NCBI GenBank assembly: GCA_017531225.1
Contig: JAFXLL010000012.1
Span: forward strand, 62,001 to 126,000
Reading direction: 5' to 3'
DNA from: Bacteroidales bacterium
Lineage (GTDB): Bacteria > Bacteroidota > Bacteroidia > Bacteroidales > F082
Length of the DNA stretch: 64,000 nt
Shown: piece by piece, positions 37,937 through 61,400 of the stretch
Layout of the letters: each line of letters starts with the position of its first letter
Numbering within the stretch: the first letter of the stretch is position 1
The notes under the pieces: model-generated
The model's database searches: none
Told to the model about the DNA's origin: nothing
What the model saw: only the letters and a program-made list of their open reading frames with translations
Made by a program: the position numbers and the translations under genes

Positions 37937-37961
37937 AGTTGATGCTATTATTTATTTGTTA

Positions 37962-37969
37962 CAAAAGTA
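37962..37969 (-). promoter_or_regulatory. -7 box TACTTTTG for the patatin gene
   Basis: Minus-strand TAnnTTTG 25 bases before ATG 37936; 41 bases from the divergent argS box. Confidence 0.55.
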
Positions 37970-38010
37970 TGAATAAAAACCCTAAATTGACAACTAATCC
38001 GCTTTTTTCT

Positions 38011-38018
38011 TATTTTTG
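38011..38018 (+). promoter_or_regulatory. -7 box TATTTTTG for argS
   Basis: TAnnTTTG with TTGA 24 bases upstream. It places transcription initiation near 38023-38026, which favours the argS start at ATG 38044 over the much earlier in-frame codon at 37939. Confidence 0.6.
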
Positions 38019-38043
38019 TGGCATGATTAAAAAAGAAGAGAAT

Positions 38044-39855
38044 ATGTTAGAAGAAATCCTTAAACAGCTATTTATCAAATCGTTTCAAACCCTTTATGGA
38101 CAAGAACCTCCTGCGCAACAAGTAAATTTCCAGAAGACAAGGCCTGAATTTGAAGGTGACCTTACCGTAGTGGTGTTCCCCTTCGGGAAATTGGCAGGAC
38201 GTAACCCCGAACAATTGGCCAATGAGATGGGCGCAGAAATGATGAAGGAATCTTCGATGATTGCCAAGTTCAACGTCGTGAAAGGATTTCTGAATATCTT
38301 GATTTCCGATAGCTTCTGGATAGACTTCTTCCGTGAGAACCATCTGAAAGAAAACTATGGCCGCAAGGAAGTCTCAGGCAAACCCGTTGTGGTGGAGTAT
38401 TCCTCACCGAATACCAATAAGCCTTTGCATTTGGGCCATATCCGCAATAATCTCCTTGGATGGAGCGTCTCCGAAATCCTGAAAGCCAATGGCAAGAACG
38501 TGGTGCGCGTCAATCTGGTCAACGACCGTGGCATCCACATCTGTAAGAGCATGCTGGCTTGGAAGAAATGGGGTAATGGTTGCACACCTGAATCCACTGG
38601 CAAGAAAGGTGATCACTTGATTGGTGACTTCTACGTGCTATTTGATAAGAAGTTTAAGGAAGAACTGAAGACCTTGCTGCCTGCTGATTACGACACTTTG
38701 GATGAAAAGGCCCAAGAAGAAGCTAAAGCTAAGGCCGAAGCCCAATCCACCTTGATGCAGGAAGCCCGTGAGATGCTGCGCAAGTGGGAAGCCAACGACC
38801 CTGAAGTGCGCCAACTTTGGGAGATGATGAACCAATGGGTGTATGATGGCTTCGATGTCACTTACAAACGTCTGGGTGTATCCTTTGAAAAGATCTATTA
38901 TGAATCACAGACCTATTTGCTGGGTAAGGCATTGGTGCAAGAAGGACTCGAAAAAGGCGTGCTCTATCGCCGTGACGACAACTCAGTTTGGTGTGACCTC
39001 CGTGATGAGGGTTTGGATGAGAAACTGCTGCTCCGTCGCGATGGCACCTCTGTTTATATGACTCAGGATCTGGGCACCGCCCAACTTCGTGTGGAGGAAT
39101 ACGATCCCGAAAAACTCATCTACGTAGTGGGTAATGAACAAATCTATCACTTCGACGTGTTGAAGCGTGTGTTGGTACGTTTGGGTCGCGAATGGGGCAA
39201 GGATATCGAGCATCTTTCCTACGGTATGGTGGAACTGCCCAATGGCAAGATGAAGTCTCGTGAAGGCACAGTGGTGGATGCTGACGATCTCATGGATGAG
39301 ATGGTTGCTACGGCTAAAGGCGTTTCGGAAGAACTCGGCAAGGCAAAGGATCTTTCTCCAGAGGATGCCAATAAGCTTTATCACACCATCGGTTTGGGTG
39401 CCTTGAAGTACTTTATCTTAAAGGTGGATCCCAAGAAGACCATGCTCTTCAATCCTGCTGAATCCATTGATTTCAACGGCAACACTGGACCGTTTGTGCA
39501 ATACACCCACGCCCGTATCTGCTCGGTGCTCCGCAAGGCTGCCGAACAGGGAATTAAACTTGAGGATGAGGTGAAGATCACAGACCTCCAACCCAAGGAA
39601 AAGGAAATCATTGTAATGATGTATGGCTGGCCGATGATGCTCAACCAAGCTGCCGAAGGCCGTAGCCCTGCGATGATCGCCAACTTTATCTTTGATCTCG
39701 CCAAGGAGTTCAACCAATTCTATCAGGAGTGCAGCATCTTGAAGGAGGAAGATGCCAACCGCCGTATGTTCCGCCTGCAGATCTGCGCCATGGTGGCAGC
39801 GCTGTTGCGTAATGCCTCGGAACTCCTCGGCATCGGCATGCCGGAACGGATGTGA
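38044..39855 (+). CDS. argS: Arginyl-tRNA synthetase
   Basis: A class I aminoacyl-tRNA synthetase of about 603 residues charging tRNA-Arg. Start: ATG 38044 (MLEEILKQLFIK) begins the Add-1 domain in the normal place, and the promoter box at 38011 rules out the upstream 35 codons; ATG 38023 is a possible alternative. HIGH-type motif as SSPNTNKPLHLGHIRNNLLG, the KMSKS-equivalent as GKMKSREGT, and the C-terminal anticodon-binding DALR helix bundle (RLQICAMVAALLRNASELLGI) are all present. Confidence 0.95.
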   Translation: MLEEILKQLFIKSFQTLYGQEPPAQQVNFQKTRPEFEGDLTVVVFPFGKLAGRNPEQLANEMGAEMMKESSMIAKFNVVKGFLNILISDSFWIDFFRENHLKENYGRKEVSGKPVVVEYSSPNTNKPLHLGHIRNNLLGWSVSEILKANGKNVVRVNLVNDRGIHICKSMLAWKKWGNGCTPESTGKKGDHLIGDFYVLFDKKFKEELKTLLPADYDTLDEKAQEEAKAKAEAQSTLMQEAREMLRKWEANDPEVRQLWEMMNQWVYDGFDVTYKRLGVSFEKIYYESQTYLLGKALVQEGLEKGVLYRRDDNSVWCDLRDEGLDEKLLLRRDGTSVYMTQDLGTAQLRVEEYDPEKLIYVVGNEQIYHFDVLKRVLVRLGREWGKDIEHLSYGMVELPNGKMKSREGTVVDADDLMDEMVATAKGVSEELGKAKDLSPEDANKLYHTIGLGALKYFILKVDPKKTMLFNPAESIDFNGNTGPFVQYTHARICSVLRKAAEQGIKLEDEVKITDLQPKEKEIIVMMYGWPMMLNQAAEGRSPAMIANFIFDLAKEFNQFYQECSILKEEDANRRMFRLQICAMVAALLRNASELLGIGMPERM

Positions 39856-39867
39856 TTGAACGAAAAT

Positions 39868-39884
39868 CAGGTATTTATACCTAA
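39868..39884 (+). promoter_or_regulatory. Putative operator CAGGTATTTATACCTAA (kinase gene)
   Basis: Perfect 6-bp arms AGGTAT / ATACCT around a TT centre, in the 7-2-7 geometry known for NarL-family regulators. It ends 23 bases before the TATTTTTG box at 39906. The same element with the same spacing precedes the giant gene (42588-42604). Confidence 0.65.
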
Positions 39885-39905
39885 TATTATTCATATTGCT
39901 TTTCC

Positions 39906-39913
39906 TATTTTTG
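39906..39913 (+). promoter_or_regulatory. -7 box TATTTTTG for the kinase-regulator operon
   Basis: TAnnTTTG 26 bases before ATG 39940. No good -33 box is seen at the normal distance; the palindrome lies there instead, as at an activator-dependent promoter. Confidence 0.6.
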
Positions 39914-39939
39914 TTCCGTTTTTTTAAAGCGTGACTGAT

Positions 39940-41931
39940 ATGAAACGTTTGGTTCCATTGCTAATGGCCCTTGTCTTTCTCCCCTTGTTGTCAATGGGTG
40001 ATCCTGTGGGCTCGGATGACTTTTTCGATACGCAGTACACGATCTTTGAGCGTGAACAGGGCCAGAGGGCCTTTGTAGCCGCCCAAACCATCATGGACTC
40101 CATTGGCGCTCCAGTGGATTTCGATGCGGATACGGACAAAGAGGTCGTCAAAACCCAGCTGTTGAAGATGATGATTCAGTATTTTTTCGGGATAGACGAG
40201 TATGAGCAGCAGGTGCATTACATGCAGATTGCCGAGCCGTTTTTTCGCGAGACGGACAATCTGATGGATCTGGCCGGGTGCTACAATATCATGGGTATCT
40301 CGTGCCAGCGCATGGGGCAGTTCAACGAGGCCATCCATTATTATAACAAGTGCAGCGATCTGTTGGATGAGATAGGAAGTCCGGTAGCCTTGACCAACAA
40401 GCGCTATGAGATCAACAACGTGGCCAACATCTATACGATGATGGAGGAATGCGACATGGCGGAGGAAATGTATCTCAAGTGTATCGAGATGTTAGGGGAG
40501 GTGGGGACCGATCCGAGGAACAATCTCGATTTGGCCGCCTATTATATGAACTTGGCTGAAGTGTATATGATCCGGATTTCCAAGATGGCCGAAGACGACC
40601 CAGAGAGGGCCTCGTTGGTGAGGACTGCGGTGGACTATGCGGAACAGAGTCTCGACCTGTCGCGCCTTTATGGTGATCGGCCCGAGAAGATGGCCAACAG
40701 GTTCATCACGGTCTCTAAAACCCATTTCGAGGAGGGAAGAGTCCGGGAAGCCATGGCGGAGTTGGATTCGGCCATGGTCATCATTGAAGATCAGGATTTG
40801 GTTTTCCTGAAGACAGGGGCCTCTATTCTTCAAGGCGACTTTGCCTATCGGACGGGGCGCCTTGACGATGCTGAAAGATACTACGTCCAAGCTGCGGAGA
40901 TGGCTGAGGAGTTCGAACTCGACGAGTTTTGCGTGGAGAGCCTGAATGGAGCCTACTTGGCTTCCAAGAAAAACCATCCCGAAAGGTCCGTCGAGTATCT
41001 TGAGCGATGCAACGCTTGGAGGGATACCATCTACAACCAAGAACAACAGGCGCTGATTCGTGATTATCAGGTGAAGTACCAAACGGCTGAGAAGGAGCGT
41101 GAGATTGCGGAACAACAGGCCCAAAACGAGAAGAGTCGGCACCGGATGGTCTTGCTTGTCGTGGTGGTGGTGTTTCTTGTCATCTTGGCCGCCCTGCTGC
41201 TTCACTTGGCGTTCAAGCGCAGAAAGCAGAACGAATTGTTGAAACGTCGGCACCAGATCAAGGACCACTTGTTCTCTGTGGTTTCGCATGACATTAAGGC
41301 ACCGGTGGAAACGCAGGCCCAGCTATTGGAATTGATGTGCGGGCATGTGGACACCTTGCCTCCTGCCGAGCTTAAGGAAGGATTGGAGGGGATGAAAAAA
41401 TCGGCCATCGATTTGAAAGAGAAGCTGTTGAACCTGATTTATTGGGTGAAAGGCGAGTTAGGCGACAATGAGAGCCATCCCACGGCATTCAATTTAAATG
41501 CCTTGACGCAAAGTGTTATTGACGAAATGTCGTCACAGGCCGCGTTGAAGTCCCTCTCGGTGGTCAACGAGATGCCTTTGGCATGGGAAGCCTTCGATGA
41601 CGCCAATATCGTTCGGATGGTGTTGCAGAACCTGCTTTCGAATGCCGTGAAGTTCTCCAAGACGGGAGGAACGATCCGTATGGGCGCCAAAGAGGAGGGT
41701 GGACGTTATCGCCTCTTTGTAGCGGATCAAGGCAACGGCATCAGCAAGGAAAAACTGGCAATGCTTCTTCAGGAGATGACGGTGCCAGGATCTGGCACAA
41801 GCGGTGAGAAAGGTACGGGAATCGGTCTCTTCGTGAGCCGTCAGCTGATGGATAGGATAGGAGGGGAGATTGACATAGAAAGCGAGGAAAACCAAGGAAC
41901 TACAGTTAGTATTACGGTGAATAAGGCATAG
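39940..41931 (+). CDS. TPR-containing sensor histidine kinase
   Basis: A 663-residue two-component sensor. Signal-like N-terminus (MKRLVPLLMALVFLPLLSMG), a periplasmic array of about six tetratricopeptide repeats (residues about 65-390, e.g. LAGCYNIMGISCQRMGQFNEAIHYY), one membrane segment near 402-425 (VLLVVVVVFLVILAALLLHLAF), and a cytoplasmic kinase: His450 in SVVSHDIKAPV (phosphoacceptor), the N box LLSNAVKFSK, G1 box VADQGNGIS and G2 box GTGIGLFVSRQLM. ATG 39940 is preferred to the GTG at 39931 because the signal sequence starts there. It is three bases from the response regulator gene and shares an operator-like palindrome with the giant protein gene. The signal sensed is unknown; TPRs usually bind peptides or proteins. 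Confidence 0.92.
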   Translation: MKRLVPLLMALVFLPLLSMGDPVGSDDFFDTQYTIFEREQGQRAFVAAQTIMDSIGAPVDFDADTDKEVVKTQLLKMMIQYFFGIDEYEQQVHYMQIAEPFFRETDNLMDLAGCYNIMGISCQRMGQFNEAIHYYNKCSDLLDEIGSPVALTNKRYEINNVANIYTMMEECDMAEEMYLKCIEMLGEVGTDPRNNLDLAAYYMNLAEVYMIRISKMAEDDPERASLVRTAVDYAEQSLDLSRLYGDRPEKMANRFITVSKTHFEEGRVREAMAELDSAMVIIEDQDLVFLKTGASILQGDFAYRTGRLDDAERYYVQAAEMAEEFELDEFCVESLNGAYLASKKNHPERSVEYLERCNAWRDTIYNQEQQALIRDYQVKYQTAEKEREIAEQQAQNEKSRHRMVLLVVVVVFLVILAALLLHLAFKRRKQNELLKRRHQIKDHLFSVVSHDIKAPVETQAQLLELMCGHVDTLPPAELKEGLEGMKKSAIDLKEKLLNLIYWVKGELGDNESHPTAFNLNALTQSVIDEMSSQAALKSLSVVNEMPLAWEAFDDANIVRMVLQNLLSNAVKFSKTGGTIRMGAKEEGGRYRLFVADQGNGISKEKLAMLLQEMTVPGSGTSGEKGTGIGLFVSRQLMDRIGGEIDIESEENQGTTVSITVNKA

Positions 41932-41934
41932 GTT

Positions 41935-42546
41935 ATGGAAAGCAGTCAAAAGATTAGAGTATTAATCGTTGAGGACCATCCAATGTACCGAGTTGGCCTA
42001 CGGATGGGGTTGCGCTATTCCGATTCCAATTGCGAGGTGGCGGCCGAAGTGGAGGACGTGCATCAGGCGGTGACCTACCTGCAGGACCATGGAAAGGACG
42101 TTGACTTGATCCTGTTGGACTATTATCTGCCCGACGGATCGGCATTGGACGTGATCAGCGTGGCCAAGTCTGTCTCGCCGGAGGTCAAGGTGTTGCTGAT
42201 CACGGGCTATGTGCTGGATAACGCCGTGATGAGCCAGATGGAGATGGTCATTGACGGGTATATCAGCAAGACGGTGAAACCCGAGGAGTTGAGAGTGTGC
42301 ATCGATTCGCTTTTCAAGAACCGTGACTTCAGAAAAAACGAAGGGAATACCGTGAGCCTTACGCCTCGCGAGATCGAAATCATCCGTTTGTGCGCCGAAG
42401 GAAAGTCAGCCCAGGAGATCGCCGAGGCGCTCAACCTCAGCAAACGCACCATTGAAGGCCACAAGGTAAGGATTTTCAGCAAGCTGAGTTGCAAGTCCAC
42501 CTTGGATTTGGTGAATTACGCCTATCGCAACGGTTTGGTCGTTTGA
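41935..42546 (+). CDS. NarL/FixJ-family response regulator
   Basis: A 203-residue DNA-binding regulator. The receiver domain (about 5-125) has the acidic pair ED at residues 13-14 (VLIVEDHPMYR), phosphoacceptor Asp62 in LILLDYYLPDG, the Thr in LLITGY and the switch Lys in SKTVKPEE. The C-terminal LuxR-type helix-turn-helix (about 140-200) reads LTPREIEIIRLCAEGKSAQEI, LNLSKRTIEGHKVRIFSKL. It directly follows its cognate kinase (three-base gap). The palindromes at 39868 and 42588 have the 7-2-7 inverted layout bound by NarL-type dimers, so they are the best candidates for its binding sites (inference). Confidence 0.94.
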   Translation: MESSQKIRVLIVEDHPMYRVGLRMGLRYSDSNCEVAAEVEDVHQAVTYLQDHGKDVDLILLDYYLPDGSALDVISVAKSVSPEVKVLLITGYVLDNAVMSQMEMVIDGYISKTVKPEELRVCIDSLFKNRDFRKNEGNTVSLTPREIEIIRLCAEGKSAQEIAEALNLSKRTIEGHKVRIFSKLSCKSTLDLVNYAYRNGLVV

Positions 42547-42587
42547 TCCTCATTTGTTTATTGCTGTTTCATAAGTTTCATTTTTTT

Positions 42588-42604
42588 CAGGTGTAAACAC
42601 CTAA
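42588..42604 (+). promoter_or_regulatory. Putative operator CAGGTGTAAACACCTAA (giant gene)
   Basis: Perfect arms AGGTGT / ACACCT around an AA centre; differs from the kinase-gene element only at positions that keep the palindrome, plus the centre. It ends 23 bases before the TATTTTTG box at 42626, exactly as at 39868. Confidence 0.65.
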
Positions 42605-42625
42605 AACCCTTTCATTGCCCTATAT

Positions 42626-42633
42626 TATTTTTG
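42626..42633 (+). promoter_or_regulatory. -7 box TATTTTTG for the giant gene
   Basis: Identical octamer to the kinase promoter, 17 bases before ATG 42651. No -33 consensus at the normal distance. Confidence 0.6.
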
Positions 42634-42650
42634 TTTTTGATAATATAGAC

Positions 42651-45600
42651 ATGAAAGATATGAAGCGTTTCTACCAACCTCTGATAGTCTTGTTGTTTGT
42701 GTTTGGCGTGATGGCAAACGCTGTCGGACAGACACCCGATGTATGGGGATCGCCCCGTGTGGTCAATAGCTTTCCTTATTCGGAATCGTTCACGGCGAGT
42801 TCCAACCTGCATAACGACTATCAACTTCCCGGCAATGCCCCCGATGGCAACGACGCCGTCTTCAAGCTGACGTTCAGCAACGATGTGGAGTTCTCCGCAT
42901 CCATCGTCGGTGAGAATGAAAAAATGGGTGTCTATCGCGAAGACTTCGGCGGGTTGGGAGGGCCTACTCCTAACAATTCGATTACTCCTGCCTTGAGAGC
43001 GTACGCTTGTGATTTCGAGAATGGTGATTTGGGAGCGCTCGAATGGGTAAACGATGCCACCTATCCATGGATTATCACCAATGAGGATGCTTTCGAGGGC
43101 ACCTACTCCATGAAGTCGGGCAATACCGACCAACACGGCAAGACAAGCACCATTCAGTTCACTTTTGATCTTCCTGAAGATGGCAAAATCCATTTCAGGA
43201 TGAAAATCTCTTCGGAAGGTTGTTGTGACAAGGGTTGGTTCTATATTGATGATGTTGAGCAACTGGGCGGTTTCGCTGGAGTAAGTGACTGGGATGAACG
43301 CACCTACGACCTGACCCAGGGTACACATACTTTCAAATGGAGTTATTCTAAGGACGGCTCGGTAAGCTCTGGCACCGACTGCTTCTATGTGGATGACATC
43401 AGTTTCCTGAAAACGAATGGCACGCCTATGGGTGGTTCGGGGGCCCAACTTGATAGGGTGATGCTGCAACAAGGCACCTATTACGTGGTGGCTTCCTCCA
43501 CAAGCGAGGAGTTCACCGTGAATCTCGACGCCAATAGCGTTCCGGCACCAGAAACAGTGTCCGGCCTCGGTCCCGACAACGGCCATGTGCTTTATGTCCC
43601 TCAGACCACTCAGGAACTGACTTGGACGTTGGGCCGCTATACAACGGAGTACCAACTGCTGGTGGGTGAGACCAATCCTCCCACCGATGTGGCTGTGGCA
43701 TGGACTATCGACTTGGCCGAGAGTTACACGCTGACGCTTCAAAACCATAAAACCTATTATTGGCAAGTCAACGAACGGAACTCCAGCGGTACTACGGCAG
43801 GCCCTGTCAGCGCTTTGACCACCAGCATGCTGTTCCCCAATGCAGACAACGTATTCTTTGTCACTCCCACCGGCAGCGGCACCAAGGAAGGAAACTCGTG
43901 GGCGAACGCCTCCGACAATCTTCAACAGGTGCTCTATGTGGCCAACCTCCTGACGGTGAAGCCGACCGTGTGGGTGGCTGAGGGTACCTATGTGGGCGAC
44001 AGCATTGCAGAACACGATGCCTTCACCATGATGGCCGGTGTGAATGTGTATGGTGGTTTCGCCGGGACGGAGACGACACTGTCGCAACGTGATCCCGCCA
44101 ATCACCCCACCATCCTCGACGGACAGCAGGTGCAACGCGTGTTGGGACAGACTGAGGCCTTCGCCGATGCCTTGGCGGCGGTGTGGGACGGCTTCATCCT
44201 TGAGAAGGGTTGTTTGTCCACAGGCCCCTTTGGTGCTGGCGCCGCGCTTCTCGGCAACGGAACCCTTCGCAACGGCATCGTTCGCAACAACCATGTCCTC
44301 TACGGCAATCGGGAGGTTGGCGGCGGTGGCATTTATTTGAATGGAGGTACTGCTGACCATTGCGAGATATGCCAGAACGACGCCAACAATACCTACTCAA
44401 GCAACTATAATCACGAGTACCAAGCCCAGGGCGGCGGTGTCTATATGACATTGGGAAGCTTGTTGGATTGCCATATCCATAACAATACCGTGATCTCGGT
44501 TGTGGAGAACCATGGCGGCGGACTCCGTGTCGATGGCAGTGACTTTTGCATTATCAATAACTGTGTTGTGGAAAACAACAGTGCCTTCGGGGCTGGTGGT
44601 GTCTATTCCCGGCGGGCGCGCTTCACCAACTGCATTATCGCCAACAATACCTCCACCAAGGATTATACTGTCAGTGGTGTCAATATGAATGTGGGCGGTT
44701 TTTATGACCAATATGATACCTATCTCACCAACTGCGCCATCGTGAACAACACCACGGTCTGTGGCGTGGGCGGTCTCTATAGTGGTATACTCCAAAACTG
44801 TGTGGTGTGGGGGAACCGTTGTGGCTCGGCCATCAGCAACATCGACGGCTATTACTATCTTTCTGTGCAATATAGTGCTGTTGAAGGCGGCTATACGGGT
44901 ACAGGCAATGTTTCCATTGCTTCCGAAAACACCGGTGATCTGACTTCGCCTTGCTTCACCAATCCTTCCTCGGGCGACTGGACCTTGCAGGAGTGCTCCT
45001 TTTTGATTGGCCGTGGTAATAATGATGCCAATGATTTGCCGGCCCTTGACATGGCAGGCAACACCCGCGTCCAACAGGGAACGGTTGACATCGGTCCTTA
45101 CGAGACCCCCTACAACGTCACTTTCAATGTCCAACCCGATGCGAACCATATCGTTTATGTGGCCATGGAATCCTCGGGAACGGGCGATGGCTCCTCATGG
45201 GAAAACGCCTGCGACAACCTAAGTCTGGTGTTGGAATTGGTGCCGACCACGGATCCTCCCATTTCGATTTGGGTGCAGGAAGGTGTGTATGTCGGCAACG
45301 GCATTGTCAACACAACAGCGTTCAAAATGGCCGAAGGAGTGAACGTTTACGGTGGTTTCGCCGGTACGGAAACTTCCCTTGACCAGCGTCCCGAGGGACA
45401 TTACTCCACCCTTGACGGCCAAAATGTCCAGCGGGTGTTGGGCCAACAGAAAAACTTCACGGCTTCCACCTCGTCCACTTGGGACGGGTTCATCATCGAA
45501 AAAGGAAGGCTGACGACCGACAATGGCGCCGGTGCTTATCTGCGGGAAAACGGAACGCTGAGGAATTGCATCATCCGCCATGATACGGTCATGGCCGTCA

Positions 45601-48600
45601 GCTCCATCAATCAAATCAAGGGCGGTGGCGTCTATATGACGGGTGGACGGCTGGAAAACTGCGAGATTCATGGTAATATGATTTCGGGCCACGGGTGGGT
45701 TTACGGTGGCGGCGTATGTGTGGATGCTTGGGAACCCGGAGCCAATATCGTCAATTGCCATATCCATGATAATATAGCGGAGAACCCCTCATCACCCAAT
45801 TCAAGCATGGTTCATGGAGGCGGTCTTCACGCTTATCGAGCAGTGGTGACCGGTAGCGTCATCAGCAACAACAAAGCAGTGGAAGGCGGTGGCGTCTATG
45901 CCTACGGCTACTTGCGGATGACCAATAGTATCATCGCCAACAACACCTCGGTCAGCCATGGTGCCGGTTTGTATCATGGAAACAACTGCACGGCCATCCT
46001 CAACTGCGATATCGTCAACAACCAGATCGTTCCCGCCGAGGAGAATCGGCAAGGGGCAGGCATTTATTTGGGCACGAGTAACTTCACGATGACCAATAGC
46101 ATCGTTTGGGGTAACATGGTGGGTGACAGTACTTACAACCAATGCCGTTTCGGGGACTATTCCCCAGGGGTTACCTTCTGTGCCATCCAGGATGGTTATG
46201 ACGGTACGGGCAACATCGTCCTCGATGCCGAGAACAATGGCTCGTTGAGTCCCTTCTTCACCAACCCCACCCAGGGAGCGGGAATGGCTTACCACGGCGG
46301 CGACTGGACGCTCATGGAAGAGTCGTTCTGTATCAACCAAGGCACCTCTGCCGGACTCGTGACGGGTGACTGGTGCTCCGACTTGGACATGCCCGAGATC
46401 GATATGGCAGGAAACGACCGTGTGCGGATGGGGGCTGTCGATATCGGCGCATACGAGTCGCCTTACAACGCCGTCATCATCACTCCCGATGAGCATGGCA
46501 TCGTCTATGTGACCCCTGCGGGTGCGGGTGCCAAAGACGGCTCCTCATGGGCCAACGCCTCCGACAATTTGCAGCTAGCCGTGAACCGCGCCGGTGCTGC
46601 TGGAGCCGGCACCAAGGTCTGGGTGGCCCAAGGCACCTATCAGAACCATACCCCGGACAGTCAAAACACCTTCACCATGCCGCAGGGTATTCATGTGTAT
46701 GGCGGCTTCGTCGGCAATGAGGCCTACGACTACGACCTTGGCCAGCGCGATCTGGTGAACCATGCCTCCATTCTCGACGGACAGGGCACGCAACGGGTGC
46801 TCTTCCAACGCGTCAACTACACCGAGACGACTGCCGCTGTCTGGGACGGCTTCAGCTTGACCAACGGCGGAGGTGGCACCATGGGTGTCGCTGCCTACTT
46901 GCGTTCCTTCGGCGAATTGCGCAACTGCCGTGTCCATGGGAATACCGCTACGGGCAACGGGAATACTGTGGTGTATGCTGAGGGCGATTATTATGGAAAT
47001 GCCAAACTGACCAATTGCCTTCTTTACGACAACCAAGGCCAATACATTGTTTATGCCAAAGGCAAGACCGTTTTCCTCCACTGCGGCATCTATGGCAACA
47101 CCGCCTTGAATGATGGATCGGTGGTGTATATTCGGGCGAATTACAGCGGTGTTATTTACAACAACGTATTGCAAAACTCCGTGTTATGGGGAAATAACGG
47201 TAACAGATTCAATAGCTATGATGAAATAGATATCACTTATTGCGCTGTTGAAGGTGGCGTTCCCGGCATAGGAAACATCAACCTCTCCACCTTGAACACG
47301 GGTGATCCGATGTCGCCCAACTTTGTCAATCCAGCGGCTGGCGACTGGACCCTTCAATCCAACTCGATCCTAATAAATAAAGGTGTCCTCCTGGAAAACC
47401 ATCCTACCATGGACCTGGCAGGCAACACACGTGTCCAGCAGGGACAACCCGATCTGGGTCCCTTCGAGTCGGCCCATGCCACTTTCTACGACGTTGTTCC
47501 CAACAACGGCATCGTTTATGTCAGTGTGGACGGTACGGGCAACGGTTCCTCATGGGCTGAACCTTGCGGCGACCTGCAGTTTGCCATCAATAGGGCGGCG
47601 GGCATGAACCCCCAACCTGAAGTATGGGTCAAGGAAGGGGTTTATCACACTTTGTTGCTCAATCCCTCCAGTGCCTTCTTCATCGTTCCCGGTGTGAACG
47701 TCTATGGCGGTTTCGCGGGTACCGAGACCAACTTTGCGGATCGCCAACTTGGGGCGCACCAGACCATTCTCGATGGTGACAACGGCCATCGGGTGCTCGG
47801 CCAAAACAACGAATTCACCGACGCCCAAGCGGTGGTGTGGGACGGCTTCGTGCTGCGCAACGGCAATGCGGAAAGAGGCGCTGGCGCCTACATCATGCAC
47901 AATGGCACGTTGCGCAACTGCGTTGTTAAGAACAACAGCATCCAAACCGGAGGATATGGCGCCGTTTATGCGGACCACTCTCTTGTCATCAACTGTGAGG
48001 TCTCCAATAACCAAGGCGGTTATCTCGCTGGCGTCCATGGCTATTATTCCGACGTCATCAATACCACCATCGTCAATAACACCAGTTCTGAATATGGTGG
48101 TCTCTGGCTGCAAGGCGGCACCTTTGCCAACCTGATTGTCTGGGGCAATGGCACCCGACAATACATCAGCCAAGGCGCATCCTTCACCCACAGCGCCATC
48201 CAGGCGGAGAGCGTTACCGGCGACAACATCGCATTGAATGCCGAGAACGACGGTACCGGTGAGGGCAACTATGTGCGTTTCCTCGCTCCCGAACTGGGAA
48301 TCTATCAGCTGAAAGACAACTCATCGGTGATCGGAATGGGTGATGCCAACGTGGAAGGCCTTCCCGACAAGGACCTGGCGGGTCGCGACCGTATCATGGA
48401 CGGCACCCTTGAGCCGGGCGCCTACGAACAATACTGCACCGAATATGAATACATCACCGTCAATGCCGGCAGCAGCTACGACTTCTTCGGCACGCAGCTC
48501 ACCGAACCTGGGACCTACCTGCATCAATACAGTTTCAGTCCGACTTGCGACAGCCTGATCGTCGCCGAAGTGGTCATGACCTCCAACCGTTGGTACGTCA

Positions 48601-51600
48601 CCACCACCGGCGCAGGCAACAAGAGCGGCAGCTCCTGGGCCAACGCTTCCGACGACCTGAACGCCATCTTGGCCATGGCGGGACAGACCCTTGGTTTTGA
48701 GGACCGTCAAGTGTGGGTGGCGGAAGGCACCTACACGGGTTTCACGGATTACTGGTCGCCGAACAGCTTCTATACCATCAGCGGCGTGAAGGTCTATGGC
48801 GGCTTTGCCGGAAACGAGACGGAACTCTCCGAACGCAACCTTGAAGCCCATCCCACCATCTTGATGGGTGAGAGCAGGAAGATGCTGTTGGCGCCTTCCA
48901 CGGATTTCCCGTGTAGCACCCAGCATCCCGGCCTTTTCGACGGCTTTATCCTCCAAGGCGGCTATGAGATCTCGGTGGAGGCCCACATGACGCTTCAGCA
49001 TTGTCATACGGCGATTCCCACAACAGCCAACGGCACGCTGAAACAATGTGAATTCACCGGCTTCAGCAACGAGGGTAGCACGATCATGATCCGCCTCAAC
49101 GACGGTGCGGTCATGGATTCCTGCACCGTCCACCATAACGTCTGCCGCTATGCCTTGGTGCGTGCCGAAAACGCCGTTCTCAGCAACTCGATTATCTACA
49201 ACAACACCTGTAGCCGCAACGATGTGGGAGGAGAGGACGATAGGTTGTACGGTGCCATCCTCAACGCCATCGACAACGTGACCATCGATCACTGCGACTT
49301 CCTGAACAACCGTCTGGAATACACGAGCTACATCTCGTATTCGATGTACGTCAACATGGAAGACGAGGCTGACCAAACAATCCGCCAGCCCAAGCATACC
49401 ATCATCGCCATGCGCCACTCCTCGATGTCGAACAGCATCGTATGGGGTAACGAGCAGGGACTCTACCATCGGCATTTCATTGCCAAGGATGCCGCCTCCA
49501 CCATCGACTACTGTGCCATCGAGAACGGCCTCTACAATGGCGTCGGCAACATCCGCGTGAGTTCCGATAACGAAGGGAACCTGTTCTCCTTGGCCTTCAA
49601 TGCGCCGATCCTTGGCGTGGGCCATCTGTCCAACCGCGACGATGTGGACTGGAGTCTGAAGAGCACTTCCATCGGTCTGAAGCAGGGTTCCAACGGCTCC
49701 GACATCGGTGCCATCGGCTCCGCCGCTCCCGCAACCTGCAGCCTTGTGCCTTCGGCGGATAACGTCATCTTTGTGGACGCCCAAGGTACGGGCAACGGCT
49801 CTTCATGGAGCAATGCCACACCTTATTTGCAATATGCCGTGGCCCGAGCCAACACCTTCACTCCAGCGGCCCAGGTCTGGGTGAAAGAGGGCGTTTATTC
49901 CATCATGATGGATACCACCTCCGTCATGAGTGCCTTCAACTTGGTGGAGAACGTCAGCGTCTATGGCGGCTTCGCCGGAACGGAAACCGCCCTTTCCGAT
50001 CGTGACTGGGAGAACCACCCGACTTATCTGGATGGTCGGAACACGAGGCGCGTACTGTACCAGAACGAACCCATTGATGCGGCTACCCCAGCCGTTTGGG
50101 ACGGCTTCGTCATTCGTAACGGCTACCTCGATGAGAGTGGTTTCTACGATTACGACCTGGCCCTCATGGTGCATCCTTATGGCTATTATACCCGGGATCA
50201 CCAACTCCAGTTGCACGGCGCGGGTGCCGTCCTGATGCAGAACGGCATGCTGCGAAACACCAGGTTGGAGCACAACCGTATCCAATTCTCTTCCAATGGC
50301 GGAGAGTTTGCCGAAATGGTGAAGGGCATGATGCTGAGCATGTCGGGCGGACAGTTGAATCATGTTGTCATCTCAAATGACACTACGGTTTATTATAACT
50401 CTTATAACGGCATGGTGAACACCTACCTCTTTGCGGTGGGTGCACAGATCGACAGCTCCGAGTTCAGTCACAATATCGGCAAAATCGCCCTGCACAGCTG
50501 CAACGTCAACGCCACGCGATTTGAAAACAACCAGGTGCAGCTCACCGTACCTGAGGTGGATCCATTGGAGGAGGCACAGCTCTATGTGGATGCCTCCACC
50601 TTGCGTCATTGCTTCTTCCGCTTCAACAATGCAGTGTCCGTCAACCGTTATTTCACCAACACACAGAACGCCAATACCTTCGCCAACTGCCAGTTTGACC
50701 ACAACAACGCATCGGTCGTGGTGAGGCATAGCAAAGACTACAACGACACTTTCATCAACTGCAATATCTGCAACAACAGGTCGTCCAATCCCGACGCCTA
50801 TCCCATCAGTGGGGGTATCTTCCACAATACGGTGGTTTGGGGCAACCGCAACCATCTGAATATTCCCATCCATTTCGCCAATGCCGACCAGAGCACTTTC
50901 AACCACACCGCTGTCGAGTTGGGCGTGAATGGTTGTGACGATGTCATCCGGTTGGCCTCGAACAACGAGGGTACCAGCCAAGCCTATGTGTATCCTCGTT
51001 TCATGGCGCCTGATGCGGGCGACTACGAACTGATCGGCACATCGGGGCTGGTCGATGCCGGTGACGGGAGCGTGATCGACTATCCCCTTGACATCATTGG
51101 CAATCCCCGTGTCAACGACGGAACGGTGGACATCGGCGTGTATGAGTACAAGTGCATCCGTTACCGTGAGTACAATGTCTTTGCCACTACCAACACCTAT
51201 CCGTTCTATGGGGAGTGGCTCACCGAGTCGGGACAATACGTCCATCGTTGGCATCTCGACAACCTTGATTGCGACAGCGTGGTGGTCATGAACCTCACCT
51301 TCAAGCACATCGTCTATGTCAAGGAAAACGGTGGCGGTCAACGCAACGGCACTTCTTGGGAGAATGCCTACGGCGACCTGAGCCTTGCCTTGCAGGCAGC
51401 GGGACAAAACCCCATGGACAAGACCCAAATCTGGGTGGCCGAGGGCGTCTATCGCGGCGACGGCACCTCGGTGAACGCCTTCGAGTTGTATCCCAATGTG
51501 GAATTGTACGGCGGCCTGACGGGGACGGAGTTGGCCGACTACGACCTGAGCCAGCGCGATATCGAACATCATGTCACCATCCTCGACGGTGACTATATCC

Positions 51601-54600
51601 AACGGGTCTTGTATATGGTGGACGACGCCACCGAGGAAACCGCCTGCGTCATCGACGGCTTTACCATCAAGAACGGCTATTCGCGCCAGGATGTGAATTC
51701 GGGTACGGCCTTGTATCTGAAGCGCTATTGCCACGTGCGCAATTGTATCATCACCGAGAACTATACCTGGAATGGGGCGTCGGCCGTCGAGATGCATACC
51801 GACGACATCGTGGCCTGCGACCAGAAGGTGATCTTCAACACCTTTGAGAACTGCCAGATCACCAACAACCAAGGTGACTATGCGGTGTTCTCCGATCACA
51901 CCTCCTTCACCCATTGCCAGATTTCCAACAATCAGGGCAGAGGCTTCTATGTGGTGACCTATACGCAACTCAACCACTGCGATATCGAGACCAACGAAGG
52001 CCGTGGTATCGCATTGAGAGGAGCCTTTTATAAATACATGGATCCCATCTTGGGCATCGAGAAGCGCTCGCACGACTATCTCGACATGGACGGATGTCTG
52101 CTCAAGAAGAACAAGAAGGGCGGTATCCTCTTCATTAATGAGGACTGCGAGGAAGGTCACAGCGAGACGAATATTGTGAACTGTGTTTTCGATAGCAACA
52201 CTACCGCCAAAAGCGGGAACGACACCCGTGGCGGTGCCATCTGCGGCGACAACCACGACATCTTCATCATCAACTCCACGTTCTTGAAAAACACCGCCAA
52301 AGACGACGGCGGTGCCCTGTACGGCGTGAGCTACCATATTGTCAACTCCATCCTTTCGGGCAACAAGGCAGGCGGACAGCCGAATCAACTCTCCAGCCAT
52401 TACTATCAGAACGTATTCTGCATCCTTGGTGAAATTGAACATGTTCACATGGAGACCTGCGACATCACCTATTCCGCCATCGAAGGGGGCTATCCCGGCG
52501 AGGGGAATATCGCGGTCAACAATACCGATCTCCTGTTGGGCCTGAACAACGGCTACCTTCCCCATGCGGGGTCGGTGTGCATCAATAACGGCACCACAGA
52601 GGGCTTCGTTGTGCCCGAGTACGATAGGGCAGGGGTCTCCCGTGTACGCCAAGGCCGCATCGACATCGGTGCCTATGAGAGTAACTTGACCGGTACCACC
52701 TTGATCCAGCCAAGTGCCAACCATGTCATCTATGTGAGCAAGGACGGCACAGGCAATGGCTCCTCTTGGGAGCAGGCCACTTCGCACTTCCAGATGGCCA
52801 TGAACTTCGCGCTTTGCTACGACCCGATCCCTCAGGTTTGGGTGAAAGGCGGGGTGTACGACCAGCTTGAGGAGGAGAACGTGCAGTTCTGGAGCGAATT
52901 GGCCATGATGCCCGGTGTGAACGTCTATGGCGGCTTCAACGGGACCGAACAGAGCCTCCAGGAACGCACCTTGGGTTCGACACCCACCGTTCTCGACGGC
53001 AATTACCATCGTCGTGTCGTCGAACAGCTGCGCACCTTCGAGAGTGACGAAAAGGCGGTTTGGGACGGCTTCGTCATCCGGAACGGCTACGGTCACCAGG
53101 GCTATCTGGACAATATCAGGTACATGTCGGAGAGTTTGATCCTCAAACACTTCAAGGATCAGATGCATGGCGGTGGCGTGCTGTTGCGTGGCGGTGCCAG
53201 TGTGGACAACTGCGAGATCCGCGACAATGTGGCCTACCGCGGTGGCGGCATCTATCGTGAGAGTGCCACCAACGAGGCAGACTTCCTGCGCAACGACAGG
53301 ATCATCCACAATTACGCATTGGAAGAGGGCGGCGGTATGTACCTGAACGGTCGCGTCGCCGATTGGGAAAACGGCTTCAACGCCATCGACACCATCGCCA
53401 ACTGCGAGATCAGCGACAACAAGGCCGACCGTCATGGCGGTATGATCGCTTGCCGAACCAACCTCTTCGGCTGTTCCTTCGTCCACAACACCACGGAGCT
53501 TTATGCGTTCGATACCATCAGTTCGGGCAATACCTACAACCATTACGTCAACTGCCTGATGTGGGGCAACGACAGCCGCAACTATGCTTTCCAGACCGAA
53601 GGCAACAACAATACTTACGAATATTGCGCCATCCAGGGCGGACACGAAGGCACGGGCAACATCGATTTGGAGGCCGAGAACAGCGGTAGCGGAACCGGTC
53701 TTCATTATGCCAACCTTCTCGCTCCCGAAGAGGAGGTGTATCGTCCGACTGACATCTCCGCTTTCGCCAACCTGGGCGACAATTCAAGGGCCTATGGCGA
53801 CCATGACCTGGCCAACAAACCCCGTGTGAAAGACGGAGTGGTGGAGATGGGCGCCTACGAGACGGCTTGCGTCAACTACGAGCATCGTCATGTGATCTCC
53901 AGTGAACAATTTGAATTCTACGGCCAGATCCTGACCGCCTCGGGCCATTACCAGCATCAATGGACCCTCCAAGGAAGCGATTGCGACAGCCTCGTCAGTC
54001 TCGACCTGGAGATACGTCATATCCTCTATGTGCGTGAAGGGGGCACGGGCGACGGCTCCACGTGGAGCAACGCCCTGGGCGACCTCAACGAGGCCATGCG
54101 TCAGGCTGCGGAGTACTCCGGCGAAGGCAACAAGCAGGTTTGGGTGGCTGCAGGTACCTATACCAGTGCCACGGGCACGGGCAACCAGGCCTTTACCCTT
54201 TGGCCTGGTGTGGAAGTCTATGGCGGCTTCCCGAGCAACCTGGCCGACGATTCCGCCTTCGACATCGGTGACCGTGACACGCAGAGCACCCCCTCCATCC
54301 TTCTCGGCAACCACGTCCAGCGTGTGGTTGGCAACATCGGCAAGGAATCGGGTTTCGGTCCCGTCAGCAAGGGCTGCCTCGACGGCTTTGCCATCCAAAA
54401 CGGTTATACTACCGGTAATGGCGGCGGCGTGTATGTGCAGAACTACGTCACTATCAGGAACTGTGTCGTCAGCTACAACCAAGGCGGCAACGGTGCAGGC
54501 GTGTATGTGTCCAACCACTGCGAGGTGATCGACTGCGACATTTATGGCAACACCGCCCTCAATGACGGTGGCGGCGCCTACGTGGCCTCTTCTACGCTGA

Positions 54601-57600
54601 CCTATTGCCATCTGCACAACAACTTGTGCGACAATACCGGTTCAGGGATGCGTCGTGGCGGCGGTATCTTTGGTGTCAACGCCACCATCAACAACTGCCT
54701 GATCGACAACAACAGCGTCCTGACCGACCAGGGTTACGGTGGCGGCATGTTCATCGGCAACTCGGAGGTGCCGAGCCAACTGCTCAACTGCACGATGGTC
54801 AACAACTATTCGTACTACCTGGCAGGCGGTATTTACAGCGAAAACAGCACTTCCAACAACGAGTTCATCAACTGTGTGCTGTGGGGCAACCGCACCGACC
54901 TCAATACCCAACAGATCGCCGTCAGTGCATCAAATGTGCCGATCTACCTGCGCTATTGTGCGGTTCAAGGCGGTGCCGCCGGCATCGGTACCATCCACTT
55001 GTCGGCCTCGAACACAGGGGACCTCTTCTCGCCCTGTTTCGTCGCTCCTTCGGAGAACGTGGGCGCCAACTTCGGTGGCGGCGACTGGCATTTCGCCAAC
55101 GGATCCATCCTGGCCAACCACGGCGAGCGCATGGAATACACCCTCACCCACGACCTCGACGGCGATAACAGCGCCCGTGTGAAGAACGGAAGGGTCGATA
55201 TCGGTGCCTTCGAGAGCGTCTTCACGAACGACTATGCTCCCGTGGCCACCAACAACGTGCTCTATGTCAACTGCAACAACATGGGAAGCAACTACGTCGG
55301 CGACAGCTGGGCCAACGCCATCCCTGACCTGCAGATGGCCATCAACTTTGCTGGCGACGATGACAACCGTCCCGCCATCTGGATTGCCGGAGGCACCTAT
55401 TACGGCAACGGCTGGCCCTACGTGGATGCTTTCGTGGCCATGAACGGCATCAATCTCTATGGTGGCTTCGCTGGTACGGAAACCTCGCTCGACCAGCGTG
55501 TCTATGGGGCGCATCCCACCATCCTCGACGGACAGAACATCCAACGCACCTTGCAGCAAGCCCAGGAAGACTACTTCAAATACAAACGCTTGGAGGAACT
55601 GCAATATGCCGAGTATGACGGCCTTACCATTCGAAATGGATTCGTCTATCTGAATAGTGGCGGTGGTGTGCGGATGTACAAAGGCGAGCTGAGCAACAGC
55701 ATCGTCGAGAACTGCCACGCCCTCAATGGCAATGGCGGTGGCATCCTCGTCCCGGGTGGCTTCCATGTGACCGCCACCAACACCTCGTTCATCAACAACA
55801 AGGCGGAGTACGGCAATGGTGGCGCCGCCTGCTATGAGGTCAGCTACTATTCTGGAGAACTCACCACGCGCAACTGTCTCTTCGCCAACAACTCCGCTTT
55901 GTACGGCAAAGGTGGCGCCATATACGATGGCGTACACTACAACGCCACCATCGTGAACAACTACGCCAGTGAGGATGCCGGCGGCGCATGTCATGCCGCG
56001 GTTTACAATAGCATCCTTTGGGGTAACAAGGTGGGTGACAACGAGCCTTGCAGTTTGGAGACCTCCGATCTGCTGAACGGCGGTTTTGGCGGAGGCGAGG
56101 TGCGTTATTCCGCCATCGAAGGCGGCTTCCTTGGCGAGGGCAACCTGACCTTGAACGCCGAAAACTCGGGCAGTGGCAATGTCAACTATCCGAGATTCGA
56201 GAACCCGACGATCGCCGCGGGTGCCGGCTTTGCGTCGGTCACCGCCAACAACGAGGCTCCATCATGGCGGTTGCTCCAAGGCTCGCTGGCCATCAACCGA
56301 GGCAACAACGCCTATGTGGAGTCGGGCGACCTCGACCTTGACCATCAGGTGCGTGTTGAGAACCAAACGGTGGATTTGGGATGCTACGAGTCGTCGTATC
56401 CCTCCAATATCGAAATCGTTCCGGATGCCAACGGCATCATCTATGTGACTTCGGCGGGCTCAGGCAGCATGAACGGCTCCTCATGGGCCAATGCGACGCC
56501 ATACCTGCAACTGGCCATGGAACGTGCCGCCCTCCTCAACCCGAAACCTGTAATCTGGATAGCCCACGGCACCTATGTGGGTAACGGCGTGCCTTATTAT
56601 CCCGCCTTCCTGTTGCCCGACGGGGTCAGCATCTATGGCGGATTCGCAGGCAATGAACCGGCCAACTACGACCTCACGCAACGCGACTTCGACATGCATC
56701 CCGCCATCTTCGATGGACAGGATCTGCAGCAGATCCTCCGCAACGACGGGGCGGATCAGAACCTTGACGTCATCAGCGGCATCACCTTCCAGAACGGTCG
56801 TTCCGGCCGCGACGGCGGTGCGGCCTTCCTTTCCAATTGCCAGATCGAGGACTGCCGGTTCTTCAACAACACCATGGTACAGACGGGTATCTTCGGCGGC
56901 GGCGCCCTCTGTGCCTCCGGTTCACGCATCTATCGCAGCGAATTCATGGGCAACTATGCGGTGGGTAACGGCGGCGCCATCTATGGCTGCGACCTCATCG
57001 ACCGGTGCAAGATCCATCACAACAACGCCGGTGGTAACGGAGGCGGCATCGCCGAAGTCCGCATGGTAACCAACTCCGAAATCAGCTTCAACCACGCCGA
57101 GGGCAAAGGCGGTGGCGTCTATTCCATGCCGGAGATGCATAACTGCGACGTGGTGAAGAACACCGTCAACCCCAGCGGGGCGAATGGCGACTCGTCGAAT
57201 GGCGGCGGTATCTATTGCAATGGGACTCTGGTGGATCCATACGGCGGCAACTTGTCGAACTATGCCACCAACAACATCGTTTGGGGCAACCGCGCCGGTG
57301 CCTTGGTGAGCAATATCCGTGGTGGAGTGCAACGCAACAATACCTTCACTTACAATGCCTTCGAGAATGACGAAAACAACCCCGAAGGCACAGGTAACAT
57401 CGTGTTGCAGTCGGCCAACGACGGCACCTATACCTCGTTGCACTATGTCCGTTTCACCGATCCCGACGGCGGAGACTTTTCCTTGATGGACACGCCGAGA
57501 CAGTCGATGTGCATCGATGCTGGCAACAATGCCACCGCTTCTGGAGATTACGATCTGGCGGGCAACGAGCGTGTCGTCAACAGTATCGTCGATATGGGCT

Positions 57601-58412: not shown

Positions 58413-61400
58413 GCCACTTGGAACGACTACATCGTGCTGTCGTATCCTTTCAACTGGGCTCCCGAGAGCTTCACCAACGCCCGCCCCGAGGCCTTCATCC
58501 TTGAAGAGGTGCCCAACCTCCTGGCCTTGGATCCGGGTGAGCAATATACCAACACCGTCAATGTCACCGTCCCCGATACGGTACGCGGCAGCGTGTTCCT
58601 CTTCGTGGTCTCCAACTGGATCCCGATGAGCGCCATGAACCCCGATGTTTCCTCGGTCGGAGGCGTGTTTCCCAACCCCTATACTCCCGATATTTCAGGT
58701 CATCCTTATTATTACCTGTCGGGTTCCTGTGCCGCCGCTTCGTTCCATGAGGTCAACGAATGCGACAACTTCTTCTACGACACCCTGAATGTCCAAATCG
58801 CACCCTATCCCGACCTGATGGCCAGCGAAATCGTCGTGTCGCCCTCCGATCCCCGTGCAGGCGACACCATCACCGTGTCGTGGACTTTGGGCAACTATGG
58901 CGGTGTGGGCTTCCAGGACAAGGTGGTCAAGGACGTGGTCTTCATGAGTACGGACAATACTTTCAACGGAACGGCGTTTGAGATCGGATCCTATGTTGAC
59001 ACCTTGTCGCTGGCCAAGGGCGCAACGGTTACACGCACCGCCCGCTTCGCTACCAAAGAGGACGAGATCGGCTTCTATTACTTCTTTGTGCAGACCGATG
59101 TCACCAACCAGGTATATGAGTCGTTGTATGAGTACAACAATGTCTCGGAACCCACCGACGAGCCCAAGGAGTTCATCGAGCCCGATGTGCCCGACCTCCA
59201 GATGAGGGCGCTCTACCACTCGGCCGATACGCTCTCGCTCAAGGAGCATTTCATCTTGGGTTACGAGGTGTTCAACGACGGGTTGCTGGCCGCCAAGGTT
59301 GACGGTCCCGGCGTGACCGACACCTGCGGCACGCTTCCGCCCTTCAGAGGCGTGCAGTGGAGCGACCAGGTCTTCATTACCCCGGTGGATACCTTCTCGA
59401 TTTATGAGAACGAACGTCTGCTGAGTGTGGTGAACGACACCATCCTGTATAGGGAAGTCGAAGTGGCCAGCATCCACGCGATGCTATACGATTTCGCCGA
59501 ATGCCGCTTCCCCGACCCATTGCCGTTGGGTCCTTCAGCTACCACTCAGGACAGTGCGGCCTATTTCCAGGAATTGCAGATCCAGCAGAACAACCGTAGC
59601 CAGTTCATCTACGATGAGAAGAAGAAATACAAGAACAGCTATGCCGTCCGCAGGGAGGTGGTTGTTCCCGAAGATTACGAGGAAGGCTGGCATTATCTAT
59701 TCGGTTTCGCAGACAGGAATACGAACATCTTTGAGCATGTCTATGAGAACAACAACATGGTCAAGGACTCGGTGTACATCGTGCGTCCCGACCTGACGGT
59801 GGTCGATCTCGCCTTGAACGAGACCCGCGACACGGTCCATTACAAGATGGTCAACACAGGCTTGGGCAAGTTGATTGACGGCTACGTGACCGAGAGGATC
59901 GATTTCAACAACACCGCCATCCACGAGCGGACCCGTCAACATGTCGAGATGCTTCCGGGCGACACCTTGTCGTTCTCCGTGCCCATTACCCTGACCTGCA
60001 ACTTCTATGTCAACAACACCTTGCGGGTCTATGTGGCGACCGACTACGAGAAGACGCTTACCAACAACACCAGGACCATCGACCTGCAGCTGCCCAATCC
60101 CGACTTTGAGGCCATCGACCTGGTCTGCCCGCAGGAACTCAACTCGGGCCAGACCTTCACCCTGACCTATGGCATGCGCAATAGGGGCAGTTCAGCCTTT
60201 ACAGGCGAGGTGATGAATGTCGTCTATCTCGGCTACTCGCCTGAATTGAACTTCATCACCGCCATTCCATTGGATACCCTTTGGGTAACCTGTAACAACC
60301 TGACGGTGAATTCCGAGCAGCCGGTCACCCAACAGGTCACCCTGCCTATCGATGTGGAAGGCAATTATTATGTTTATGTCTCGGTCAATGATGACGAAGG
60401 CGTTTGCGAGGGCGACGACGTGCATTCCAATTACCTCGTTTCTGATCCCATTTACATCACCCTTTCGGATTATCCAGACCTGCGGGTGACTACCGCCATC
60501 GCTCCCGAAGCCGCCGGTGCGGGCGACCCCACCAGCATCTCCTATGATGTGATCAACCAAGGCATTCGCAACATCGAAACGAGCGAGACCTGGGTTGACA
60601 AGGTGTATGTCTCCAACTCCCCGCAATTCGACGAGAACACGGCGGTGCTGGTCGCTACGGTGAACAAGTCCGGACCGCTGAACATCGGGGCCACCTATCA
60701 TAACGGCAACGTCGAGTTTGTGATGCCTTCCAATGTCAGTAGCGACAACTACTTTGTCTATGTGGTCACCGACGCCAACGACGATTTCTATGAGTATGTG
60801 GGCGAATACAACAACGTCTATCAAACCGCTTCCTTCCCGGTGACGGCCTACCAACTCGACATCGCGGTGACCGCATTCAGCCCGAAGGCCATCCTGGAGT
60901 GGAACGAAACCTATAACTGCACCTTTACGGTGAAGAACCTCGGGACGAGGACGAGCTATTCCAGTTGGACGGACAAGGTGTTCCTCTCCCTGGACGGCAA
61001 CTGGAACACCGACGACATCGAGTTGGGCTATGCCTCCAACCTCAAGCCGCTCGATGGCAATGGCGATGAATACAGCCAGACCATCAGCATCACCATCCCC
61101 TATGGATACACGGGATCGTATTACCTGTTGGCGGTGGCCGATGCCGGTTCCGTGAATCCCGACTTGAACAATGACAACAATGTCATGGCACGGCCGGTGA
61201 CGCTCAACAGCATCCCCGTACCCGACTTGCAGGTGAGCGACTTCACTTGCCTCACCGAGTATCCCTCCAACGGACAGCCCATCACCTTGGTTTACAAGGT
61301 GACCAATGTGGGCGACGGCCCGACCCCAGATTCCTACACCAACCGTGTCGTGTATTCGCGCAACACTTACGGGAACGGTTATTTTGTGGCCAACAAGGTT

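Follow-up and report, generated by a model that had tools for sequence, protein, structure and literature searches.

Two Similar Palindromes Flank a Sensor Kinase and Response Regulator Gene Pair

The present analysis concerns a 64,000-nt stretch of Bacteroidales DNA (G000:C9:62001-126000), referred to as the window, in whose coordinates positions are given below and which belongs to a 2.58 Mb genome that is 98.4% complete. At issue are two similar palindromes, one lying 5' of a gene encoding a FimS-like tetratricopeptide repeat (TPR) sensor histidine kinase (39940..41931, + strand; Pfam HATPase_c and TPR) and the other 5' of a gene encoding a giant beta-helix protein of 5253 amino acids (42651..58412, + strand; Pfam Beta_helix PF13229), with a gene encoding a NarL/LuxR-type response regulator (P0001; 41935..42546, + strand; Pfam Response_reg and GerE) found between the two. 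Throughout, G numbers designate genomes (G000 being that containing the window), while L numbers designate fetched loci.

Inspection of the kinase by eye revealed a signal-like start and a hydrophobic stretch ahead of the kinase domain, and its top NCBIfam match was NF053520 (FimS), with a score of 223.7 bits, below the cut-off of 600. The product of the adjacent gene passed the gathering scores for both PF00072 (receiver) and PF00196 (GerE helix-turn-helix), and solved homologues of this protein include VraR, NarL and DevR, bearing out the initial annotation of this DNA, which placed a NarL-type regulator between the two sites. In the giant protein, the presumed target, which also has a signal-like start, PF13229 was found in both halves scanned; a match to fn3 remained under the gathering score.

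The palindromes were found in the sequence and at the positions initially assigned to them, namely, as the 18-mers TCAGGTATTTATACCTAA at 39867-39884 and TCAGGTGTAAACACCTAA at 42587-42604. Their 14-bp cores, operator 1 (AGGTATTTATACCT, 39869..39882) and operator 2 (AGGTGTAAACACCT, 42589..42602), neither being assigned a strand and both being defined from the sequence and from window and genome scans, each stop 23 bp short of an identical -7 type promoter box, TATTTTTG (39906..39913 and 42626..42633, both + strand), such that the claimed 23-base gap holds when measured from the cores. The two cores differ at two places. At the third position out from the centre, an A.T pair is replaced by G.C, a difference compensated across the palindrome; the other difference, the central TT or AA, is non-complementary in both copies. 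Because the central pair is non-complementary in either copy, 6-2-6 is the right description of the layout. The -33 TTTG element is indeed missing, as no TTG ends 18-20 bp before TATTTTTG at either promoter. Little weight attaches to this absence, however: among operator promoters, 3 of 46 have such a TTG, and among control promoters, 20 of 116 do.

When the window was scanned with the 18-mer pattern, allowing up to three mismatches, matches were obtained at these two places only (four strand hits; 0.23 expected), although this expectation is biased by the pattern having been taken from the sites themselves. In an unbiased scan of both strands, the window was found to contain 33 perfect TANNTTTG boxes, with nine box-palindrome pairs distributed among 61 spacings, a mean of 0.15 each. 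The pairs at spacing 23 were just these two; spacing 36 likewise yielded two. A search of the whole genome for the 14-mer, followed by N23 and TANNTTTG, returned two exact matches, both corresponding to the sites considered here, rather than the many unrelated genes that would have spoken against a dedicated function. At three mismatches, four more matches appeared, as opposed to one for a reversed-pattern control. The sequence AGGTNTNNANACCT is found at nine places in the same genome. Taken alone, the two window sites are suggestive; the case for their being operators is decided by comparison with relatives.

Palindrome-to-Box Spacing Among Relatives

Among 100 genomes of the genus, 49 had matches to the regulator (E up to 1e-15); among 60 of the family, searched at E up to 1e-20, identity above 40% was confined to members of this genus. 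The 83 matches listed gave 75 systems for analysis, comprising 74 fetched surroundings and the window, once two partial matches (G124 and G066:C121), four distant matches and two halves of a broken copy had been left out, the last of these being a regulator homologue that lies in two frames and is apparently broken (L155; G111:C44:126395-126958). The distance from any palindrome with six of seven pairs to a perfect box was then compiled over spacings of 0 to 60 in these 75 loci. In regions upstream of the kinase, 10 instances fell at spacing 23 (other spacings: mean 0.25, maximum 3), as did 11 in regions downstream of the regulator (other spacings: mean 0.07, maximum 1). In a control set of 361 promoters, belonging to other genes of these loci, three instances fell at 23 (elsewhere: mean 0.73, maximum 4), and all three were afterwards recognised as promoters of such systems, namely, the kinase promoter of L088, where the kinase frame is broken, and the promoters of a secreted-looking gene just 5' of the kinase in L138 and L139. 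With five of seven pairs and a perfect box, the two tested regions gave 10 and 21 instances at 23, with maxima elsewhere of 6 and 5. The peak thus falls at exactly 23, contrary to what a motif free of positional constraint would give.

With looser limits and inspection, a site at spacing 23 was assigned in 38 of the 75 systems, always with the palindrome centre 30 bp before the box. The site stands before the kinase in 12 of these curated systems and before the neighbouring target in 37. Four later additions (L084, L085, L086 and L108), stemming from the AGGTAA search described below, raise the number of systems with a site, sometimes an imperfect palindrome, to 42 of 75. At the level of the family, no palindrome-box pair at 23 followed any of 25 regulators of about 30% identity, the kinase promoters of which lay outside the fetched DNA.

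Operator Classes and the Recognition Helix

Although the spacing is constant, the half-sites fall into classes according to regulator subfamily (AGGTRT, AAGTAA, CCGTAT, AGGAG, AGGAAA/GGGTAA, AGGTAA and GGGTGT). Of the conservation that the initial annotation would lead one to expect in relatives, the geometry and the linkage to the regulator persist, whereas the operator letters change. When AAGTAAWTTTACTT was sought before TANNTTTG in nine genomes, with any gap of 8-38 allowed, all 17 matches fell at gap 23 and the reversed control gave none; many of these 17 are sites already counted in the curated set. At up to two mismatches, the AAGTAA class, a count that takes in some AGGTAA-type sites, was represented at 29 places in nine carrier genomes, with none in the genome containing the window and none for the reversed control. 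Twelve of the 29 places lie outside an adjacent kinase or target promoter, and 11 of these 12 precede genes of secreted or lipoprotein-like appearance, the one in L194 being the exception. The CCGTAT operator was found once in each of five genomes carrying its regulator, and neither in the window's own genome nor in the control. For the AGGAG class, 9 of the 11 genomes searched had sites, 11 in total, three of them not beside the regulator; the class was again absent from the window's own genome, with one match in the reversed control.

No site was detected at the kinase promoters of the CCGTAT, AGGAG and AGGAAA classes. Self-control is hence not general, the kinase-side sites of the 12 curated systems all being of the AGGTRT and AAGTAA/AGGTAA types. 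In G144, AAGTAA, CCGTAT and AGGAG operators stand beside three different regulators, with a fourth system being without a site. Sites with one AGGT and one AAGT arm were also encountered (L092, L095 and L102), and these half-changed sites look like intermediates.

The relation between operator and regulator was considered across the 38 curated systems. Operator distance correlated with recognition-helix distance (r = 0.75) more closely than with the distance of the receiver (0.66) or of the rest of the DNA-binding domain (0.63). The partial correlation given the receiver was 0.54, a value not reached in any of 2,000 label permutations. Over 34 distinct domains, 63 domain columns and seven half-site positions give 441 pairs, of which residue 175 with half-site base -6 ranked highest (1.19 of 1.33 bits). 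In the window, residue 175 is a glycine (codon 42457-42459) within the recognition helix formed by residues 168-183 (LSKRTIEGHKVRIFSK; codons 42436..42483, + strand). Alignment of the helices places residue 175 opposite V189 of NarL, which we take to be its equivalent and, in NarL, presumably a residue that contacts DNA. L133 and L140 combine G175 with GG, like the clade of the window, yet lie on a separate, supported branch. The pairing of G175 and GG is not strict, as the kinase site of G096 has one AAGT arm despite a G175 regulator.

These results bear on whether the palindromes might be a structural or chance feature, such as a weak terminator hairpin, a repeat element or an accidental palindrome near an A/T-rich promoter. 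Operator 1 lies 13 bp past the stop codon of argS, encoding arginyl-tRNA synthetase (37939..39855, + strand; Pfam PF00750 and PF05746), and the sites are A/T-rich, as such an explanation would have it. On inspection of the sequence, however, the loop measures just two bases with no T run behind, the spacing of 23 is constant over differing sequences, and controls are near zero at strict limits. Because it is already contradicted by the spacing and the covariation, this explanation is given next to no credence.

For those G175 regulators that had no site beside them, AGGTAANWTTACCT-N23-TANNTTTG was sought in 14 genomes at up to two mismatches. This search went beyond the curated table, yet it was not blind, since the AGGTAA letters beside the kinases of L084-L086 had been noticed beforehand. 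In G028, G120 and G127, a match (two, two and one mismatches, respectively) was found beside the kinase, facing a divergent secreted-looking gene, with arms of AGGTAA plus GCGTAA or ACGTAA and four or five of seven pairs. The reversed control gave no match in any of the 14 genomes. In G076, an AGGTAA-type site lies about 0.9 kb past the regulator of L108, before a surface-type gene. The matches in G000 and G129 include their own AGGTAT sites, and in G129, a lipoprotein-like gene is also preceded by an exact AGGTAA site; a weak match in G097 precedes a gene without a secreted look. Fourteen of the 21 places were inspected. In L192, L193, L218, L219, L222, L224, L225, L229, L230 and L231, AGGTAA-type sites were seen 23 bp before lipoprotein-like or secreted-looking genes, some of them in genomes where no matching regulator is evident.

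A palindrome by itself names no protein, and some AGGTAA-type sites before lipoprotein-like genes stand far from any regulator found. The sites could thus be those of another, global transcription factor, with their adjacency to the regulator being coincidental. That the window's own genome contains only two exact sites, that the CCGTAT class is limited to one site per genome and that operator class tracks the helix of the linked regulator, both across the genus and among the paralogues of G144, render this highly improbable.

Genes Behind the Operators

Assignments of target products as secreted-looking, signal-like or lipoprotein-like were made by eye. On this basis, 34 of the 37 targets look secreted. 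These comprise 28 open reading frames (ORFs) of at least 853 amino acids with signal-like starts, two that have a signal-like start but run off the contig (L100 and L116), two of 611 amino acids (L138 and L139) and two that are small (L081 and L123). The targets of four relatives were scanned for the type IX secretion sorting domain TIGR04183, with two scoring above the cut-off, one below and one not at all. In L081 and L123, the first gene after the regulator encodes a protein of 100 and 124 amino acids, respectively, with a C-terminal PxGSG, a hydrophobic stretch and RKKEE-like residues, an arrangement resembling a sorting tag; lipoprotein-like genes come next.

Nearest Relatives and Exchange of Cassette Segments

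Among the genome contigs searched, the three closest relatives of the regulator are encoded on contigs of metagenome-assembled genomes of Bacteroidales or Bacteroidia, two being labelled yak reticulum and red deer. The cassette sits in a variable slot, of which argS forms the left border and an rsmE-like gene (by-eye reading, L195), located beyond the window, the other. In G096, the nearest independent relative, sites were found before both the kinase (AAGTATTTTTACCT, imperfect) and the target (GGGTATAAACACCT), while in G129, the target-side counterpart of operator 2 is GGGTGTAAATACCT.

Comparison of the window with G129 (L081) revealed argS to be 76-85% identical, the region of about 39851-41200 to be 99-100% identical, and the kinase domain and regulator to be 61-78% identical. 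The near-identical stretch amounts to 1.3 kb and contains operator 1 and the TPR sensor. Judging from this pattern of identity, a recent exchange of the sensor segment between species seems to have taken place. Because of this exchange, the identical kinase-promoter site of G129 is not independent evidence, whereas that of G096 is. The G129 operator stands before the 100-amino-acid secreted-looking protein instead of a giant gene; given this different, small gene behind the operator, the operator follows the regulator rather than the target. In the argS-rsmE slot of G135 (L082), the kinase is without the TPR part, the operators and surface protein are missing together, and rsmE comes directly after the regulator.

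Proposed Mode of Action

Both palindromes are predicted to be binding sites of a dimer of the linked NarL-type regulator, which would activate its own operon and the giant gene, a reading to which we assign a probability of roughly 0.82. The control of itself and of the giant gene by the TPR kinase and regulator pair, as first proposed from the window alone, is supported at the level of sequence, with domains, rarity and relatives all fitting. In the proposed circuit, the TPRs of the kinase would be positioned on the outer side of the inner membrane, like those of FimS, and a putative signal would stimulate the kinase, leading to phosphorylation of the regulator (41935-42546). The centre of the dimer would then fall 30 bp ahead of the first base of TANNTTTG, beside the place of the -33 element and near -41 if, as we infer, transcription starts such that the box lies at -7. 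From there, it would recruit RNA polymerase in the manner of a class II-type activator at two promoters, that of its own operon, giving positive feedback, and that of the giant gene, the product of which is presumably surface-located and possibly adhesive. The genus would hold many such dedicated circuits, of fixed geometry but with half-site letters and recognition helix changed together, and because the two changed together, paralogous circuits in one cell could stay insulated from each other.

The activating sign is deduced from the position of the site and the likeness to FimR, and is not fixed by any sequence feature. The regulator might therefore act on these operators as a repressor, or as an activator at one promoter and a repressor at its own; self-control is, after all, optional, as seen in the CCGTAT, AGGAG and AGGAAA kinase promoters without a site. 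Nonetheless, a centre constantly found 30 bp upstream of the -7 box at both promoters corresponds to the usual place of an activator, the identical geometry at kinase and target promoters speaks against opposite signs, and FimR is described as an activator in the available text of PMC1974823. Repression at either promoter is accordingly regarded as unlikely.

Several observations weigh against the main reading. At five of seven pairs, the control promoters are not clean, with 10 instances at 23 among the 361 (elsewhere: mean 4.7, maximum 13). Thirty-three of the 75 systems are without a local site at 23. Twelve belong to a distant clade (L143-L154); of the other 21, 19 have no large secreted-looking gene directly 3' of the regulator. 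L127 and L129, which make up the rest, do have such a gene, with a palindrome at spacing 24, and are not among the 42. L082 encodes a regulator of the window's clade and has no operator. Some curated sites are imperfect, there being four of seven pairs in both G096 sites, in the G129 target site and in L132, and the target box in G129 is TTTCTTTG. The targets of L092 and L095 appear Clp-like by eye, and that of L103 a small helix-turn-helix-like protein. The AGGTAA search was not exclusive, with 13 of the 14 genomes giving matches, including ones chosen as controls. In the covariation analysis, residues 167 and 203 come next after residue 175, with 1.08 and 1.05 bits, such that much of the signal reflects shared ancestry. 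More generally, the loci share ancestry, so that neither counts nor correlations are independent.

A broader reading, for which we consider the chances to be about even, sees the genus as containing an expanded family of insulated sensor-regulator-surface protein circuits that combine a rigid promoter with a short NarL-helix code and offer a socket for exchangeable surface proteins. In such a code, residue 175 would set the outer bases, with G, N or R specifying GG, V specifying AA, T specifying CC, and A or S specifying a mixture of GG and AA, while residues 176 and 179 would set the inner bases. If the socket exists, targets in the argS-rsmE slot and the sensor segment would be exchanged, with the match of regulator to operator being kept.

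Relation to Known Systems

The closest known system is FimS/FimR of Porphyromonas gingivalis, and the circuit considered here probably works in a similar manner. In both, a gene encoding a TPR sensor kinase adjoins that of a response regulator. As described in the literature, FimS is a kinase with a periplasmic TPR sensor and FimR activates genes for surface structures through direct promoter binding (PMC1974823, PMC11053733, PMC5706477), with the authors of PMC11053733 suggesting that the FimS TPRs bind a polypeptide. On the other hand, the kinase scores below the FimS equivalog cut-off (223.7 of 600 bits), and while FimS/FimR targets fimbriae, the neighbouring gene here encodes a giant beta-helix protein rather than a fimbrillin. 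For these two reasons, we did not class the system as FimS/FimR. None of the words palindrom, inverted repeat or footprint appears in the main text of PMC1974823, and neither a FimR operator nor autoregulation is described in the accessible parts of the FimS/FimR literature examined.

As in the NarL/FixJ-type regulators NarL, VraR and DevR, the regulator combines a receiver with GerE, and its recognition helix aligns with that of NarL. The 6-2-6 palindrome and the helix covariation appear to agree with the binding of a dimer to an inverted repeat, a trait of this group. NarL recognises a palindromic dimer site with half-site letters that differ from those seen here, where the letters vary between subfamilies. 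In the Bacteroidetes sigma-ABfr promoter consensus, as given in the available part of PMC7366714, TAnnTTTG lies at -7 and TTTG near -33. Both promoters here share the perfect TAnnTTTG box (TATTTTTG); unlike the consensus, they have no -33 TTTG, the operator instead abutting its place at a fixed distance. PorXY-SigP, so far as the sources available describe it, likewise represents two-component control of secretion genes (type IX) in Bacteroidales. PorXY-SigP acts via an extracytoplasmic function sigma factor and is not a NarL-type pair beside its target.

A literature search, in which partial texts were covered and subscription papers fell mostly outside the scope, returned no description of this operator system, which is weak evidence of novelty. 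It has long been asked how paralogous response regulators gain new DNA specificities while avoiding cross-talk. With at least seven operator classes in one genus, constant promoter geometry and intermediate-like sites, a residue-to-base code becomes directly testable. The operator rule (palindrome, 23 bp and TANNTTTG) could serve as a finder of regulated surface proteins in uncultured Bacteroidales, and is likewise a candidate for the FimS/FimR family, for which the accessible parts of the literature examined give no defined operator.

Other Features of the Region

A TGA codon at 58410-58412 ends the giant ORF, after which the same reading frame resumes to 62891 (58413..62891, + strand; listed from a GTG at 58434, 1485 amino acids). 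This ORF may be a second gene or the interrupted end of the giant gene, with a recent interruption, an assembly error and a true boundary all being possible. An NCBIfam scan of parts of the giant region (42651-46000 and 58434-62888) gave no match, including to the TIGR04183 sorting domain. Further 3' of the giant gene (L195, G000:C9:120000-139000), more large secreted-looking ORFs of up to 1752 amino acids are followed by the rsmE-like gene. On the other side of the cassette, rpoB (25597-29439; NCBIfam TIGR02013) is an ordinary housekeeping neighbour.

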